64,000 nucleotides of DNA from a virus, in IMG/VR virus record IMGVR_UViG_3300050821_006672, positions 1-64,000 of that record, one strand, 5' to 3'. Shown here piece by piece: positions 2,684-59,186 of the stretch (the stretch's first letter is position 1; every line of letters starts with the position of its first letter). The notes beneath the pieces are model-generated. The model was not told the DNA's origin. It did no database searches and was given only the letters and a program-made list of their open reading frames with translations. The position numbers and the translations under genes are program-made.

Positions 2684-3172
2684 CTAAGTCACGCTGGGGA
2701 CGGGAGGCGCCGCGGCAGGTTCCTTGGCGAGGGCGCGGAGCCGATTACATACGTCGAGGGCACCATAAGCGCGACCGCGCGCCAATTCATCTCCTGGTGC
2801 CCCTTCTTGCCATGCCACGGCGACGGCTTCACCAATTGCGATGCACCGCTCGATCGTCGCGGCTTCGATGGCGTCGCGCTCTGCCAGCACCTCGTAAATC
2901 GTCCTCATCGCGCTGGTGTTCTCCAACTCCCGCACGCGGGCTTCGGCAGCCTCGGCCCGATGTAGCCGATCCCCCGATAGTCGCTCTGCATTGAAAAGCA
3001 TGCGTTTCGTTTGCTCGATCTCCTGCGCCTGCGCGGCGACTCTCGCCTCTGCAGCTTCTGCGCGTGCGCCCAATTGGTCGATCAGTTCGTGCGGATCATC
3101 CTGAGATTCGCTACTGAGCGCATCAACTGCTCGCTGGACCAAGTCCGAGATCGGTTCTGCGGTGTCGGTCAT
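2684..3172 (-). CDS. Coiled-coil protein, Ea22-like
   Basis: 162 residues with a long heptad-rich stretch from about 33 to 105 (two EAAEARV repeats) and a helical C-terminus. It resembles the loosely defined phage Ea22-like proteins in having a central coiled coil and a C-terminal helical part. This is the last gene of the leftward block, tail to tail with the lipoprotein gene. Function unknown. Confidence 0.65.
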   Translation of the reverse strand: MTDTAEPISDLVQRAVDALSSESQDDPHELIDQLGARAEAAEARVAAQAQEIEQTKRMLFNAERLSGDRLHRAEAAEARVRELENTSAMRTIYEVLAERDAIEAATIERCIAIGEAVAVAWQEGAPGDELARGRAYGALDVCNRLRALAKEPAAAPPVPSVT

Positions 3173-37654: not shown

Positions 37655-37954
37655 ATGGCCAACATTGCGGAGTTGATCACACAGATTGAAACTTTTCTGG
37701 AAGATGCTGATCGTTTCGAACTTGCTGATGACAGTGTGGTTGATATCTGGCCGGCTACTAGAGCACTGGATGAGTTGAAACTCGTCCTCGCCGCGCAGGC
37801 GCAGGAGATCGAGCGGCTAAGAGACGCACTAGAGGCCTGTCGCCAACATGTCCGGCATCACAACAATTCGGGAAGTTGGTGGAACGATCCAATAGTTTGG
37901 AAATTAATGCGAGAGAAAATTGACCCAGCACTTGGAATAGAGACGCGAGAATGA
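37655..37954 (+). CDS. Small helical protein of unknown function
   Basis: 99 residues: an N-terminal helix (IAELITQIETFLEDADRF) and a coiled segment (AAQAQEIERLRDALEA) of the type seen in the other small phage coiled-coil proteins of this window. GGTGAGAT lies before the ATG; the stop overlaps the amidoligase start. Function unknown. Confidence 0.6.
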   Translation: MANIAELITQIETFLEDADRFELADDSVVDIWPATRALDELKLVLAAQAQEIERLRDALEACRQHVRHHNNSGSWWNDPIVWKLMREKIDPALGIETRE

Positions 37955-41240: not shown

Positions 41241-41465
41241 GTGGGAATCCTGATTACGGGTCTCAACAAAGGCCCCTACCCGCGTAAGAGTTGGATCATT
41301 CTAACTTGTGATGCACGCCACTCTGGATTTCTTGGCGTACCAAATCAGAGATTTGATCAGGACGGCTTCATCAAACAGTATTCTGCCGCGATGAAAGCGG
41401 GTTGGAAAGACACATTTCGTAATGGTGACCGTGTATTTCTTTGTCCCGGTTGTTCAGGAAAATGA
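41241..41465 (+). CDS. Small phage protein with C-terminal Cys pair
   Basis: 74 residues from GTG 41241 (GGGA upstream, at the foot of the leader stem). ILTCDARHSGFLGVP and FLCPGCSGK carry Cys residues that could form a small zinc site. This small type (N-terminal TCD, FxGxP, C-terminal CCxG-like) occurs in phages without known function. Confidence 0.65.
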   Translation: MGILITGLNKGPYPRKSWIILTCDARHSGFLGVPNQRFDQDGFIKQYSAAMKAGWKDTFRNGDRVFLCPGCSGK

Positions 41466-41468
41466 GAG

Positions 41469-42116
41469 ATGGTGAATACGTTCCGTCCAATTCGAGAGCG
41501 TGCAGAGCTGTTGCTTGTTAAGCAAGCCTTGGCCATCAAGGCCGGTTGTGTTTACGCCTTATGCGATAGTAAAGGCTACGCATTCTACGTTGGCAAGACG
41601 ATACGCCCAAAGCGGCGATTTGCTGAACATGTATGGTCTTTGAAAGGAGGTCATGCGAACGTTGCCTTGCACAAGAAGGTAACGGAGCTTGGTGATGATA
41701 TTCGTGTTGCCATATTGACTTACGGTCGGACATCAGAGGAATTAAATAAGTTAGAAAGAGAGAACATTGCCCGCCGTCCCTGGACATTGAATTTGATTGG
41801 AGCGGATCATTGGGCATGGAGTTCCCGTCATGACACCAAGCCTTGGATGGCGGGTACTGGGGTACGAATGCCGTCTCAGTTACTTTTAGAGGGTTGCAGT
41901 AAAGGTTTTCGACAATTCGTTGCTCGTGACCTAAAAAGAATGAATGATGTCGATCGCTGTCGTATGGAAATTGGTATTTTTCAGAAGCTACCATTTTTTA
42001 GACAGAAAAGAGCAGAGAAGTGGTATGCTATAGTATATTGGAAACTCCTTAAATTTGTGGAAGCGGCTGCTAAAGCAGGTATTGGTTATGGCCCAATCAT
42101 TGTTTCTGGGAACTGA
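41469..42116 (+). CDS. GIY-YIG homing-type endonuclease
   Basis: 215 residues. The GIY-YIG core reads VYALCDSKGYAFYVGKTIRPKRRF in outline (VYAL ... YVGKT ... RRFAEH), then a conserved Glu region (ELNKLERENI). It is a free-standing endonuclease immediately upstream of terS, a frequent site for such elements. No intron or interrupted gene is visible around it. Confidence 0.82.
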   Translation: MVNTFRPIRERAELLLVKQALAIKAGCVYALCDSKGYAFYVGKTIRPKRRFAEHVWSLKGGHANVALHKKVTELGDDIRVAILTYGRTSEELNKLERENIARRPWTLNLIGADHWAWSSRHDTKPWMAGTGVRMPSQLLLEGCSKGFRQFVARDLKRMNDVDRCRMEIGIFQKLPFFRQKRAEKWYAIVYWKLLKFVEAAAKAGIGYGPIIVSGN

Positions 42117-42120
42117 TACC

Positions 42121-42687
42121 ATGGCGGCTCCGAAAGGGAATAAGTTCGCCGTTGGCAATCGTGGTGGTAGTGGTCATCCGTCACAGTATAAGCCGGCTTA
42201 CGCAGATCAAGCTAAAAAAGCCTGTGAGGCCGGCTTCACTGATAGTGAGTTGAGTCAGTTGTTTGGTGTGTCAGAAATGACTATCAATAATTGGAAGTTG
42301 GCTCATAAAGACTTTGCTTTAGCCCTAAACGCTGGAAAGGGTGTTGCTGACAGCCGCGTCGAGCGCAAGTTATATGAGAGAGCTTGCGGATTTTGGGTCA
42401 AGACTGAAAGGTTGTTTGTGCTCAAGGAAGATACCCTCGATAAGAGGGGGAAGGTTGTTGGATCGAAGCAATACGTGCATCACGAGCCAACAAAAGACTA
42501 TTATCCTCCAGAGGTAAGTGCCATGATATGGTGGCAGAAGAACCGCCAGCCCGATAAGTGGCGAGACAAGCACGAGATCGACGGCACGATCCGCAATGAG
42601 CATGTCTTCACCTTCAATATATTTGAGAACGATCTAAGCGCCGGTATGAAGACGATAGAAGGTAAGAAATCGGAGCGCAGACCGTGA
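42121..42687 (+). CDS. terS: Terminase small subunit
   Basis: 188 residues from ATG 42121. An N-terminal HTH (ACEAGFTDSELSQLFGVSEMTINNW) and a C-terminal WWQKNRQPDKWRDK motif are typical of terminase small subunits, which recognise the packaging site and load TerL. Position before terL supports it. An in-frame upstream start at 42055 overlaps the GIY-YIG gene and is unlikely. Confidence 0.85.
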   Translation: MAAPKGNKFAVGNRGGSGHPSQYKPAYADQAKKACEAGFTDSELSQLFGVSEMTINNWKLAHKDFALALNAGKGVADSRVERKLYERACGFWVKTERLFVLKEDTLDKRGKVVGSKQYVHHEPTKDYYPPEVSAMIWWQKNRQPDKWRDKHEIDGTIRNEHVFTFNIFENDLSAGMKTIEGKKSERRP

Positions 42688-42950
42688 GTGAATTTGAGCA
42701 GGACGCAAAACGCTGGCGTGAGTTCTGCCGCCTTGCATCGTTTCAGCGCGAGGGCTTCAACAGCCGCGACGAAGAGGGATTTACTATTCGTGTCAAGGTT
42801 CCATTGGATTGGGACTTATCGTTCGTCCAGGCAATTGATGCTTCGATAAGAGCGCAGATCGTGAAGAGGATTCTAAATGAAACTGTTGTGGTGGGAACAG
42901 ATAGGGCAGCAACTAGGCCGTCCGATGAAGATGCTGCCGCAGGAACTTGA
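42684..42950 (+). CDS. Small protein of unknown function
   Basis: 88 residues from GTG 42684, overlapping the terS stop (GTGA). DAKRWREFCRLASFQREG and a later Ile/Val-rich helix. Its last 74 bases overlap the next gene in another frame. No family recognised. Confidence 0.5.
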   Translation: MSEFEQDAKRWREFCRLASFQREGFNSRDEEGFTIRVKVPLDWDLSFVQAIDASIRAQIVKRILNETVVVGTDRAATRPSDEDAAAGT

Positions 42951-43083
42951 AAAGGGAGAGGCGCAGTTCAGGCGCTTCCTGGAAGATCAGGATCAGGCTT
43001 TCCAGATAGCGCTAGCCGATGCGGTGCGGAAGGGATTAGAGAATACGCCCAAGTGCCCGAGCCTCGACGAAATATTAAGCTAA
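42877..43083 (+). CDS. Small helical protein of unknown function
   Basis: 68 residues starting MKLLWWEQIGQQLGRP with GAGGA upstream, helical with acidic/Gln-rich stretches. It overlaps the preceding gene by 74 bases. In its last codons the other frame encodes PEPRRNIKL, a copy of the TerL N-terminus. Confidence 0.6.
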   Translation: MKLLWWEQIGQQLGRPMKMLPQELEKGEAQFRRFLEDQDQAFQIALADAVRKGLENTPKCPSLDEILS

Positions 43084-43088
43084 ATCCG

Positions 43089-43484
43089 ATGCGCGTCTTA
43101 GTCTGTGGGGGTCGCAATTTTAATAACAAGGATTTGGTTGTGCAAACTTTGAATGCGATAGCGGATGAGTTCGAGCTTTGGGCGCCTCCGGACGAATACG
43201 GCAATACGCTTCCTTTAGGCTTAACGATTATTGCTGGAGGGGCTTCTGGCGCCGATCGACTTGCTGCTGAATATGCCGCAGTAAATTGGGCGGGGTATAA
43301 GGAATTTCCTGCCGATTGGGTTAAGTATGGGCGATCGGCCGGTCCCGTCAGAAACCAGCAGATGCTGTTTGAAGGCAAGCCCGATATGGTTGTGGCTTTT
43401 CCAGGAGGACGGGGGACTGCCCATATGGTTACGGTAGCCCGACGAGCAGGCGTCCCCGTTCGTGAGATTGGGACCGATGGCTAG
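43089..43484 (+). CDS. SLOG/YspA-like nucleotide-binding protein
   Basis: 131 residues from ATG 43089. MRVLVCGGRNF, IIAGGASGADRLAAEYA and MVVAFPGGRGTAHMV are the Rossmann-type glycine-rich motifs of DUF2493/SLOG proteins, which bind or generate nucleotide-derived ligands and often appear in conflict systems. An in-frame GTG at 43053 would fuse the TerL-like PEPRRNIKL peptide to its N-terminus. Inserted between terS and terL. Confidence 0.8.
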   Translation: MRVLVCGGRNFNNKDLVVQTLNAIADEFELWAPPDEYGNTLPLGLTIIAGGASGADRLAAEYAAVNWAGYKEFPADWVKYGRSAGPVRNQQMLFEGKPDMVVAFPGGRGTAHMVTVARRAGVPVREIGTDG

Positions 43485-43674
43485 CGAAGCTGAGGTTGAG
43501 GCGGCTGCGAAGATTATTGAACGGCTTCTGCCTCGCGATCTTGGTCGTGCAAGGCAATATGCCTCTGCTGTTCTCGAAGCTGCCGAGCGAGTGCGTGAAG
43601 AAGAATTTGCCCGCAAGACTGATTGCGATGAAGCGACTGAGCGTGTTCGCAAGGTGCGCGCCAAGTTTGGTTAA
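43477..43674 (+). CDS. Small helical protein in the SLOG cassette
   Basis: 65 residues starting MASEAEVEAAAKIIERLL, almost wholly helical with many charged residues. It overlaps the SLOG gene and the terL start (TAATG). Likely part of the same inserted cassette. Function unknown. Confidence 0.55.
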   Translation: MASEAEVEAAAKIIERLLPRDLGRARQYASAVLEAAERVREEEFARKTDCDEATERVRKVRAKFG

Positions 43675-45005
43675 TGCCAGAACCGCGCCGTAATATTAAG
43701 CTGAGCTACACTCAGCCCTATCTCTATCCGAAGCAGAAAGCGGCGATATTTGATGCGCACCGTATCTCCGTTATCGAAGCTTCCACGAAGTCGGGCAAGA
43801 CCTCGGGATGCATCGTTTGGCTGCTTGAACAGGCTTTCGCAGGTAAATCAGGACAGAATTATTGGTGGGTAGCGCCGATCTCCCGAGTAGCACGTATCGC
43901 TTTTACCCGAGCCATGCGGGCTATGAACAAGGACCTGTACGTTGCCAACCTGGGAGATCACACTCTTACTCTTGTTAATGGGGCCATCGTTTGGTTTCTT
44001 GGCGCTGACAATCCTGATTCCCTCTTTGGTGAAGATGTTCACGCGGCGGTCATTGACGAAGCCTCCCGAATGAAGGCAAGCGCCTTCCATGCTATTTACA
44101 CGACGCTTACGGCGACCCGAGGCAGGCTGAGAATTATCGGAAACGTGAAAGGCCGGCAGAACTGGTTCCACGAAAAGGCGAGGTACGCCCAGCAAGGGAA
44201 AGACCCAGAATATGCCTACCACAAGATCATCTCGCACGACGCAATCGAAGCCCACGTCCTTACCGAGGACACTGTCGAAGCAGCAAAGCGTTCCTTGCCT
44301 GACTCAGTATTTCGTGAGCTCTACCTCGCGGAGGCTAGTGATGATCAGGGAAATCCCTTCGGAATTGAGGCAATCCGAAAATGCATTGGTCCTATGTCTA
44401 CGGCCAAGCCTGAAGTGTGGGGTTGGGACTTAGCCAAGAGCCACGATTGGACGGTGGGGATTGGGCTAGATAGTGAAGGTCGGGTATGTCGGTTCGAGCG
44501 CTGGCAGTCTCCTTGGGAAGCTACCCATCTACGTATAACTGGCCTTACGATGAGAGTGAGGGCATTGGTCGATAGCACAGGCGTAGGAGATCCCATCGTG
44601 GAACGCCTCCAGAAGGTTGTTGGATCGAAATACGAAGGCTACAAGTTCACGGCAGGTAGCAAGCAGCAGCTTATGGAGGGGTTAGCGGTCGCGATTCAGA
44701 CTAAGGCGATTACGTTTCCTCCCGGCCCGATCGTTGAAGAACTAGAGGTTTTCGAATACACCTACACGGGGCACGGTGCTTCTAGGAATGTGAATGATGA
44801 AGAGTTTGAGCCAAAAGGCCACGGTATTCGCTATAGTGCTCCTGATGGTTATGACGATGATTGTGTTATGGCGCTTGCCCTTGCTGTCTATCATCGCTCT
44901 CATTCCGTGCCGCGCTTGCATGTGACGCGCGATATTGTCAATAAGTCGAAGCTGCGGGTATTTGGTAATCAAGGCTTTCATATCTCTCAGATGGGGAGAT
45001 GGTAA
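43674..45005 (+). CDS. terL: Terminase large subunit
   Basis: 443 residues. ATPase: Walker A STKSGKT (37-43), Walker B VIDEAS, coupling motif region GNVKG. RNase H-like nuclease: GWDLAKSHDWT, a mid Asp (LVDSTGVGD) and GYDDDCVMALAL. It cuts concatemers and drives DNA into the prohead with TerS. The start shares a base with the upstream stop. The N-terminal PEPRRNIKL is duplicated at 43056-43082. Confidence 0.93.
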   Translation: MPEPRRNIKLSYTQPYLYPKQKAAIFDAHRISVIEASTKSGKTSGCIVWLLEQAFAGKSGQNYWWVAPISRVARIAFTRAMRAMNKDLYVANLGDHTLTLVNGAIVWFLGADNPDSLFGEDVHAAVIDEASRMKASAFHAIYTTLTATRGRLRIIGNVKGRQNWFHEKARYAQQGKDPEYAYHKIISHDAIEAHVLTEDTVEAAKRSLPDSVFRELYLAEASDDQGNPFGIEAIRKCIGPMSTAKPEVWGWDLAKSHDWTVGIGLDSEGRVCRFERWQSPWEATHLRITGLTMRVRALVDSTGVGDPIVERLQKVVGSKYEGYKFTAGSKQQLMEGLAVAIQTKAITFPPGPIVEELEVFEYTYTGHGASRNVNDEEFEPKGHGIRYSAPDGYDDDCVMALALAVYHRSHSVPRLHVTRDIVNKSKLRVFGNQGFHISQMGRW

Positions 45006-45169
45006 TGTCAGAAATCTGGCTAGCGGATTTGGAAGCCCGGTTAGTACAGCAGGAGAGAATTACAGAGCAATTGTTGACCACGATTGAATACCTGAATATA
45101 AGCGTAGCAAATTTGGACAAAGCCTTGCAGCTGTTGCTGAAGCGGCAAACTGCTGATCTGCCTAACTGA
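45005..45169 (+). CDS. 54-residue coiled protein
   Basis: MSEIWLADLEARLVQQERIT opens a single helical, leucine-rich protein whose start shares a base with the terL stop (TAATG). It lies between terL and the next structural gene. Function unknown. Confidence 0.65.
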   Translation: MSEIWLADLEARLVQQERITEQLLTTIEYLNISVANLDKALQLLLKRQTADLPN

Positions 45170-45183
45170 AGGAAACTTTGGAT

Positions 45184-45975
45184 ATGACCTACAGACTTCG
45201 CCAACTCGATCGCGATCCCGGTAAATCTGTATCTCCGATAGGAGGACGTTTCGGCGGACGTGCGAGCGAGAAATCTGGCCAGCGTGATAGTGCAGTGGCG
45301 ATGGATGAGTGGTCTCCTGAGGCAAGGGAGGCTGCTGCAAAGGCTCGTGGGTCAAAGTCGAATTTTTCAACCCGACATCCCGAGGCAGTTAGCCATTCTG
45401 AGCATCAAGCGATGGTTCAGAAGATGAATCGGGAAATGTCTCAGCGTAAAGCCTTGAAAGCTGGAGGCAAAGATGCCCAAGGCTCCTCCGAACTCGAAAA
45501 CGAATACAACGAGGGCACCGACGAATACCGCGACGAAGCTGCCGAAGCCGCTGCGGAATCTCGCGGCCGTCAAGATGATCGTGAGCAGGTAGCGACTGGT
45601 CCCACTAACGAATTCAGGGAACCAGTAGGTATCGCCGATGCGCGGACAAGGCGCTTTGGTGGTCGCGGCTCGGATAAGGCGGGTGGGAGGGATGTAGAGT
45701 TTTCAAGGGAAACCCACGCTAAGCTTGCCAAGCATTTTGAGGAAATGGCCGCAAAGTCGCAGAACTATCCAGACGCGCAGAAGAGGCATAAAGAGTTAGC
45801 TGAGCATAATAGGAGAAAAGCGGAAGAATTGGGTCGCGATCTTGCTATGGACCCGCTGGAGAAAGGCTCTGGCAAAGAAACGATTTCGCACAACATTAGC
45901 GAGATGGTACACAGCGGCCATCCACAGAACCAGGCTATTGCTGCCGCGATGCATTCTGCGGGCAAGTCGCGCTAG
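45184..45975 (+). CDS. Charged structural-region protein with internal repeats
   Basis: 263 residues from ATG 45184 (AAGGA upstream). Two similar units GGRFGGRASEKSGQRD and RRFGGRGSDKAGGRD lie near 20 and 155, separated by Glu/Ala/Arg-rich helices. The C-terminus ISHNISEMVHSG...QAIAAAM resembles a short domain common at the end of phage proteins near terminase. Function unknown; possibly virion-associated. Confidence 0.6.
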   Translation: MTYRLRQLDRDPGKSVSPIGGRFGGRASEKSGQRDSAVAMDEWSPEAREAAAKARGSKSNFSTRHPEAVSHSEHQAMVQKMNREMSQRKALKAGGKDAQGSSELENEYNEGTDEYRDEAAEAAAESRGRQDDREQVATGPTNEFREPVGIADARTRRFGGRGSDKAGGRDVEFSRETHAKLAKHFEEMAAKSQNYPDAQKRHKELAEHNRRKAEELGRDLAMDPLEKGSGKETISHNISEMVHSGHPQNQAIAAAMHSAGKSR

Positions 45976-57105: not shown

Positions 57106-59186
57106 TGTTTGTTTTATCATCAACTCGCCAGATACCGCAAGATCATCCTCTGCCGCGGATGTTTGCTGGGGTGCAGGGGCCTAATGTCGCTCCGCCCCCA
57201 CAGATTGGCTCGATTGTCCTTAAACAGGAATATCCAGAGCGTCTGAGCTCAACATTTGCGAGTGGTGTAGCTCCGGTGCCGGCAGTTGTGTTGATGAACG
57301 GCATATTTGTTGATGCCGAACAGCCTACTTTGTATACTTCAATACTCAATACTTTAGTAGTAAGCTCTGTAGTACTATCACCAGTAGGAAAGTTGTTTAC
57401 ATCTCAGGAGCAACCTTTCCATCCGCTTCCACGCTTTAATCCAGCCGTTATCCCCGGCAATGTCGCAGCAATACCTCAGATAGGTCGGTTGGTAACAGTA
57501 CAAGAACTGCCTGCTCAGCCTCCATCTATATTGGCGGTCGGTCCTCCCGCCCTACCTTCCTCTGTGTCCCCGGTTGGGGGAATACTTGTACGAGAGGCAG
57601 AAGTCGCTCCTCGACCCGTTCTGAGATTTGTGTTCGGCGTATTTCTGACGACGCCAACTCCACTAGTTACATCTCCTTTACTAGTAAAACAAGAACAGCC
57701 GATTCAGCCCACATCGTCGTTAGCGGCTAGTGGTTCGTTCGTTGCTCCGGCAATAATTCCGCCGGTATCTACTCTAGTATTGACATTGCAAGAGCGACCC
57801 ATTCAATCCCCGTCGTTCGTTGCTCCAGGAAGATTCTTGGGCGCGGCTGCTATTACGTTGCCTAGTGTACTGCCAATTCTGGTTAAGCAAGAATTTCAAG
57901 ATCATCCAATTCCTAAGATATTTAGCGGTCTGCCCCCAGTACCAGCCTCAGTCCTGATGAATGGCGTATTCGTTGATGCCGAGCAGCCTACTTTGTATAC
58001 TCCAATAACTAATGCTGGAGTTCAAACGCCGGTTATTGCGACTTCTCTCAGTCCCGGTTTCGTTTTTGGTAAAGCAGAGGTTCCAACCTACTCGCAACTT
58101 GCGTTGGTGTTTGGTGTTCAGGGCCCAGATGTAGCACTTATTCCCTCTCCGCTGATTTCTGTCCAGGAACAACCACCCCGCTCTTATTCGAACTTGGTAT
58201 CTAGCACTATATTCTTACCTCCGATTACCCTACCACCGTTCCGCGCCCCTATTCTAACTGCGCAAGAGGGACCTTTCCATCCCGCACCTCAGATGCGAGC
58301 TAGCATTCAGGGGCCTAATGTCGCCGCTCCCCCGCAGATCGGTGAAATACTGATAACTCAGGAGCAACCTTGGCATCCGTTGCCTTCGTTGCGAGCTATT
58401 CTGCCGCCCCCCATAGTCCCTGTAATAGGAACGCCAGAGACTAGGGTTATAGTAGTAAAACAAGAATTGCCGTCCCACCCTTACCCGCAAATGAAAGCGA
58501 GTATTCAAGGGCCGAATGTGGCCCAGCTGCCCTTGGTCGGCAGGATACAGATTACACAGGAATTGCCGTTCCATCCCGGTTCAATATTTACGTCTGCGGT
58601 AATTCCTGGCAACGTCGCCGCGCTTCCGCAGGTAGGGCGCTTGGTTACGGTGCAAGAGCTTCCTGACCATCCGAAACCGTCTCTGCGAGCGCCCGCGCCG
58701 CCTTCGGTCGCTCTATTGCCTCAAGTAGGGGCAATAGTCACAACGCAGGAAATACCGTTCCATCCGTCCTCCAAGATAAGTCCTGCTCTTATCCCGGGTA
58801 ATGTTGCTGCGCTGCCCCAGGTAGGTCGGTTGGTAACAGTGCAGGAGTTACCATTCCACCCCAACTCGCAGTTCAACCCAAGCGTATTCCCGCCGCCGCC
58901 TCCGGTATCGCCCGTCGGACGTACGATCGGTTCACAAGAGCAGCCATACCATCCGGGTCCGAGGTCTTGGTCTTATCCGCCGACTTCAGTTCCCTTTACT
59001 GGAACCGGCGGTCAGTTGATGCCAGTGCAAGAATACCCGTACCATCCACCTTCAATGTTGTTCTTTACGGGATACGATCCCGAGTTCGCATCTCCCGGTC
59101 CTAACTTTGCGCGGCTGCTATTCAACACTAAGATTCGCGTTCGTACCCTCGTCAATAAGACCCCGCGCACGATTAGGTACAACTGA
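57105..59186 (+). CDS. Structural protein made of 21 QExPxHP repeats
   Basis: 693 residues, almost entirely a degenerate tandem repeat of about 30-35 residues with core xxQExPxHPxP (e.g. TVQELPFHPNS, TSQEQPFHPLP, ITQEQPWHPLP, GSQEQPYHPGP) linked by Pro/Val/Gly-rich stretches such as IPGNVAALPQVGRL. I count about 21 units. No known repeat family is recognised; it is presumably an extended virion fibre or linker. A short non-repeat C-terminus (TKIRVRTLVNKTPRTI) could be the attachment end. Confidence 0.75.
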   Translation: MFVLSSTRQIPQDHPLPRMFAGVQGPNVAPPPQIGSIVLKQEYPERLSSTFASGVAPVPAVVLMNGIFVDAEQPTLYTSILNTLVVSSVVLSPVGKLFTSQEQPFHPLPRFNPAVIPGNVAAIPQIGRLVTVQELPAQPPSILAVGPPALPSSVSPVGGILVREAEVAPRPVLRFVFGVFLTTPTPLVTSPLLVKQEQPIQPTSSLAASGSFVAPAIIPPVSTLVLTLQERPIQSPSFVAPGRFLGAAAITLPSVLPILVKQEFQDHPIPKIFSGLPPVPASVLMNGVFVDAEQPTLYTPITNAGVQTPVIATSLSPGFVFGKAEVPTYSQLALVFGVQGPDVALIPSPLISVQEQPPRSYSNLVSSTIFLPPITLPPFRAPILTAQEGPFHPAPQMRASIQGPNVAAPPQIGEILITQEQPWHPLPSLRAILPPPIVPVIGTPETRVIVVKQELPSHPYPQMKASIQGPNVAQLPLVGRIQITQELPFHPGSIFTSAVIPGNVAALPQVGRLVTVQELPDHPKPSLRAPAPPSVALLPQVGAIVTTQEIPFHPSSKISPALIPGNVAALPQVGRLVTVQELPFHPNSQFNPSVFPPPPPVSPVGRTIGSQEQPYHPGPRSWSYPPTSVPFTGTGGQLMPVQEYPYHPPSMLFFTGYDPEFASPGPNFARLLFNTKIRVRTLVNKTPRTIRYN

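Follow-up and report, generated by a model that had tools for sequence, protein, structure and literature searches.

A partial second copy of the beginning of terL, the gene for the large terminase subunit, lies about 620 bases 5' of the intact gene in this viral genome, and we consider that this copy (43053-43085) is probably what remains of the start of an older terL allele, stranded by a crossover with a diverged relative. The analysed stretch of 64,000 nucleotides (hereafter the window) is part of a 109,475-base virus record (G000). This record carries 71-nt direct terminal repeats (1-71 = 109405-109475), and the genome is therefore probably complete or circularly assembled. The features of the region are as follows.

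41469-42116, plus strand: GIY-YIG endonuclease gene (homing-endonuclease-like), directly before terS (PF01541, E = 3.3e-7; phrog_314 homing endonuclease)
42121-42687, plus strand: terS, small terminase subunit (phrog_309, E = 2.7e-37; 52% identical to terS of the relative L002)
42684-42950, plus strand: gene A, an 88-aa open reading frame without a family match
42877-43083, plus strand: gene B, 68 aa (68% identical over 40 aa to L002 3418-3612)
43053-43085, plus strand: putative vestigial terL 5' end (GTG, PEPRRNIKL and N), sharing the frame of the SLOG gene downstream
43089-43484, plus strand: SLOG gene (YspA/cpYpsA-related; PF10686, E = 1.5e-14)
43477-43674, plus strand: small helical gene of 65 aa, with ATG 43477 as the preferred start
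43674-45005, plus strand: terL, large terminase subunit, intact (PF03237 over the cut-off; phrog_2, E = 3.7e-28; 68% identical to L002 TerL)

The original prediction stated that the peptide PEPRRNIKL recurs at the terL start with synonymous DNA differences only, and that a SLOG gene and a helical gene lie between the two copies; all of this was confirmed. The peptide is encoded at 43056-43082 and again at 43677-43703, in both cases immediately preceded by a start codon in frame (GTG 43053 upstream and ATG 43674 for terL). The upstream 30-base copy (43053-43082, GTG-CCC-GAG-CCT-CGA-CGA-AAT-ATT-AAG-CTA) thus repeats the first ten codons of TerL (43674-43703, ATG CCA GAA CCG CGC CGT AAT ATT AAG CTG). 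The codon after the repeat is AAT (N) upstream and AGC (S) in the window TerL, while the L002 TerL also has N at this position. Among the direct repeats of the region, this pair is the longest (28 nt, 82% identical, same strand, with a spacing of 621 nt). PEPRRNIKL is expected by chance 3.7e-7 times in the six frames of 64 kb, and AATATTAAGCT was found at two places only in the window, both of them the repeat copies, against an expectation of zero. When repeated peptides were scanned over the 109-kb record, this was the sole nearby repeat at a gene start among the 120 of 221 matches listed.

Six of the nine codons after the start differ between the copies, all at the third position and all synonymously; for six substitutions falling at random in 27 nt, an all-synonymous outcome has a probability of about 6e-5, or 1.7e-4 with transition bias. 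These differences fit the TerL frame only, since in the frame of gene B they would alter the protein throughout. A packaging-type DNA site common to the copies was also considered and was rejected, because differences confined to third codon positions indicate that the protein, not the DNA, was conserved. Codon agreement between the copies is 3/9, comparable with the 38% of shared residues for which the window and L002 TerLs, two separate lineages with 68% amino acid identity, use the same codon. The copies thus show the synonymous divergence of separate lineages with the peptide unchanged and, judged by their codons, are best taken as diverged terL alleles, not the products of a fresh duplication, as had been proposed.

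The upstream copy doubles as the last ten codons of gene B in another frame, an overlap that the original prediction had missed. The TerL-like stretch overlaps the end of gene B by 31 nt, including the codons for its final residues (SLDEILS). Gene B has one detected relative, L002 3418-3612 in IMG/VR, and the homology with this single relative stops exactly at ...TPKCP; it is here that the TerL-like stretch sets in. The end of TPKCP is encoded by AAG TGC CCG, and the GTGCCCG therein is the beginning of that stretch. Past this point, L002 has unrelated codons, and its terL is preceded by a different gene, which encodes about 130 aa. Note that gene B and terL share the six bases TGCCCG at their boundary, so that a joint by micro-homology, in place of an ancestral overlap, would also be possible. 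In the gene B tail of L002 (3544-3580), a faint and possibly frame-shifted PDRAKGLLVA can be set against the start of its own TerL, PATAKNITLN. No better upstream match occurs within 1 kb, and its location corresponds to that of the window copy; its score is nevertheless within chance, and we did not accept it as a relic.

Of the two genes between the copies, the SLOG protein matches PF10686 above the cut-off (54 bits vs 28.2). Membership of this YspA/cpYpsA-related family would imply binding of a nucleotide-type ligand. The helical gene, whose stop is overlapped by the terL start at 43674, gave no significant family match in profile searches and has one IMG/VR relative (L033, 49% over 42 aa). 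The insert shows no GC contrast to the window, which counts against a transfer.

The SLOG homology starts at ATG 43089: the PF10686 match begins there, and phage homologues align from residue 1-2. By this comparison, the TerL-like peptide is not a normal part of SLOG. The predicted anti-Shine-Dalgarno pairing is -3.1 kcal/mol for GTG 43053, -0.6 for the SLOG ATG and -0.9 for terL; the median is -2.4 at random positions and -5.6 for long open reading frames, the latter figure being biased toward strong pairing by the use of the best start per frame. Translation of both SLOG and terL seems to be coupled to the adjacent upstream stop; SLOG is probably made from ATG 43089 in this way, with the gene B stop 5 nt before it. 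Use of GTG 43053 as a start is not needed for SLOG, and we infer that it is not used at present. Thus, the weak ribosome-binding site and the position outside the SLOG homology give the upstream copy a vestigial look, although some initiation at 43053 may still occur.

To compare the junction, relatives of TerL were searched in IMG/VR, GTDB species genomes and annotated phages, yielding eight relatives by alignment and sixteen by the N-terminal 59 residues, partly on the same contigs. The slot between terS and terL is empty in L003, L005, L009, L010, L017, L023, L029 and a bacterial MAG (L034). In seven of these, terL overlaps the preceding gene (L003, 17 nt; L009, 11 nt; L010, 14 nt; L017, 23 nt; L023, 4 nt; L029, 20 nt; L034, 29 nt), and in L005 the two are separated by a 2-nt gap. 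The 31-nt overlap of the vestige with gene B compares with these 4-29 nt. GIY-YIG genes with NUMOD3 motifs lie exactly between terS and terL in L007 (4297-4989) and L016 (3306-3977), and other small genes occupy the slot in L002, L019 and L026. L002 also encodes a SLOG protein (43% identical to that of the window), located before terS and not before terL. The terS-terL interval is demonstrably a variable slot, and the insert-free forms on which the original prediction depended do exist, all of them in distant relatives; the arrangement is accordingly not one that all relatives share. Neither parental arrangement was found: the three collections yielded neither a close relative in which gene B leads directly into terL nor one with a SLOG-helical-terL block, which counts against the crossover reading. 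None of the insert-bearing relatives L007, L016, L019 and L026 has a convincing copy of its own TerL start. A search of viral contigs with the degenerate pattern PEPRRNIK[LF] matched one locus, where the sequence following the motif, in the same frame, is not that of a TerL.

From these observations we infer the following order of events. The ancestral terL would have started from the GTG that lies within the last codons of gene B, giving a 31-nt overlap; the end of the gene B homology and the overlaps in the insert-free relatives make this the simplest history. A crossover with a relative having a diverged terL would then have joined the eleventh terL codon to the DNA just before SLOG. The incoming segment would have comprised SLOG, the small helical gene and an intact terL that starts at an ATG of its own. 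On the left, the joint would have been non-homologous or micro-homologous, whereas the right joint would have been homologous, somewhere in terL or beyond, and so would have left no trace. The old start would have survived since it supplies the last codons and the stop of gene B, and it would now be an in-frame, dispensable leader of SLOG, TerL being made only from 43674. The original prediction had a cassette bringing a foreign terL 5' end and leaving a vestige. The vestigial nature of the upstream copy is consistent with its position at the end of the gene B homology, outside the SLOG homology, and with its weak ribosome-binding site. The comparison gave no support for movement as a cassette with the terL 5' end only, and no relative has the corresponding block. 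It may be that the downstream terL arrived in full together with the SLOG and helical genes, or with still more DNA, and that the native copy is the upstream one. Against a crossover, the relic comprises ten codons only and is too short for a tree of the allele.

Other explanations were weighed against this one. An intragenomic duplication of the terL 5' end, with the SLOG and helical genes inserted or the copies drifting apart afterwards, would account for two copies in one genome on the same strand 621 nt apart. We regard it as unlikely, since exclusively synonymous differences in six of nine codons imply long TerL-type protein selection on both copies, to which a duplicate stranded before SLOG would not be subject. 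A present function of the upstream peptide, with SLOG made from GTG 43053 and its TerL-like N-terminus kept by selection, for example for meeting the same partner, is likewise improbable. The reading frame shared with SLOG, the possible GTG start, the synonymous-only differences and the SLOG ATG without a Shine-Dalgarno site (-0.6 vs -3.1 kcal/mol for the GTG) are all consistent with it. However, TerL itself shows little conservation at its N-terminus, even in L002 (MPATAKNITLN), the later ATG is where SLOG homologues begin, and the pairing of the GTG is close to the level of random positions; the terL ATG also lacks a Shine-Dalgarno site, so that coupling to an upstream stop suffices. The more specific proposal that the tag recruits SLOG to the partner of TerL, with protein-level selection producing the synonymous-only differences, seems to us very unlikely.

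A further scenario is that a GIY-YIG enzyme cut the terS-terL junction and that a diverged phage served as template for an imprecise repair, by which the SLOG and helical genes were copied in and the terL start was duplicated. The GIY-YIG gene directly before terS and those in the terS-terL gap of two relatives are in line with this, as is the report that homing endonuclease genes border exchange regions near phage terminases (PMC10448857). On the other hand, the insert contains no endonuclease gene or remnant, and the local enzyme and that of L007 are only distant relatives (25% over 73 aa). We give this scenario a low probability; it is a special case of the crossover, which an enzyme cut may have started. 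Finally, an assembly chimera of two metagenome strains, conceivable for a single metagenomic record, is extremely unlikely: the longest contiguous identity between the copies is 11 bases, shorter than common assembly word lengths, the reading frames are open across the junction, and the terminal repeats are typical of a complete genome.

As for the means of such a crossover, the phage encodes a RecA-like protein and two GIY-YIG genes, and no match to RecT, ERF or Rad52 recombinases was found in the genome. The second GIY-YIG domain gene is located at 70868-71137 of the record (L037). Most phage recombination joints are not known to leave a readable partial copy of the adjoining essential gene. 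Here the putative joint left such a copy, a partial duplication of the flanking gene from diverged alleles, with a break of homology at the joint (in one relative). In other respects the locus resembles the joints of mosaic phages, including moron insertions, in which extra small genes lie between essential genes, joints fall near gene borders and alleles of diverged origin stand side by side; illegitimate and homeologous recombination are both thought to build such mosaics (PMC2327257). The locus also shares with homing-endonuclease islands by terminase genes the terS-terL insertion hot spot and the GIY-YIG genes nearby and in the gap of relatives (PMC10448857), but its insert consists of the YspA-type SLOG gene and the helical frame with no nuclease gene, so a homing-endonuclease cassette was rejected. 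In the intron-split terL of phage ICP1 (PMC10448857), a short TerL N-terminal coding piece likewise lies upstream of the main gene, whereas the main gene here has its own complete N-terminus. A group I/II intron between the copies was rejected, because there is no Rfam match in 41300-45300 and the downstream TerL is complete. A literature search found nothing pertinent on partial gene duplication at phage joints. The relic is best read as fitting known phage mosaic evolution, not as a new kind of system. It would be an unusually legible scar of small extra genes entering a phage packaging operon, with the inserted genes still recognizable alongside both the old terL start and its diverged replacement, and would show how a phage can re-create an essential overlapping start further downstream and keep its motor gene.

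Several other repeats were observed. An exact 18-nt direct repeat, GAAGGTTGTTGGATCGAA, occurs in terS (42450-42467) and terL (44612-44629) and encodes KVVGSK in both; such a repeat is unlikely by chance within 4 kb (roughly 1e-4) but not across 109 kb. L002 does not have the KVVGSK repeat in terS, and its TerL has QKHPGSK. A 27-nt exact inverted repeat is formed by two distant sites, 3013-3039 and 37788-37814. Repeated peptides (such as IPGNVAALPQVGRLVTVQELP and FVDAEQPTLYT) are encoded at 57174-58850 in a probable structural or repeat protein.
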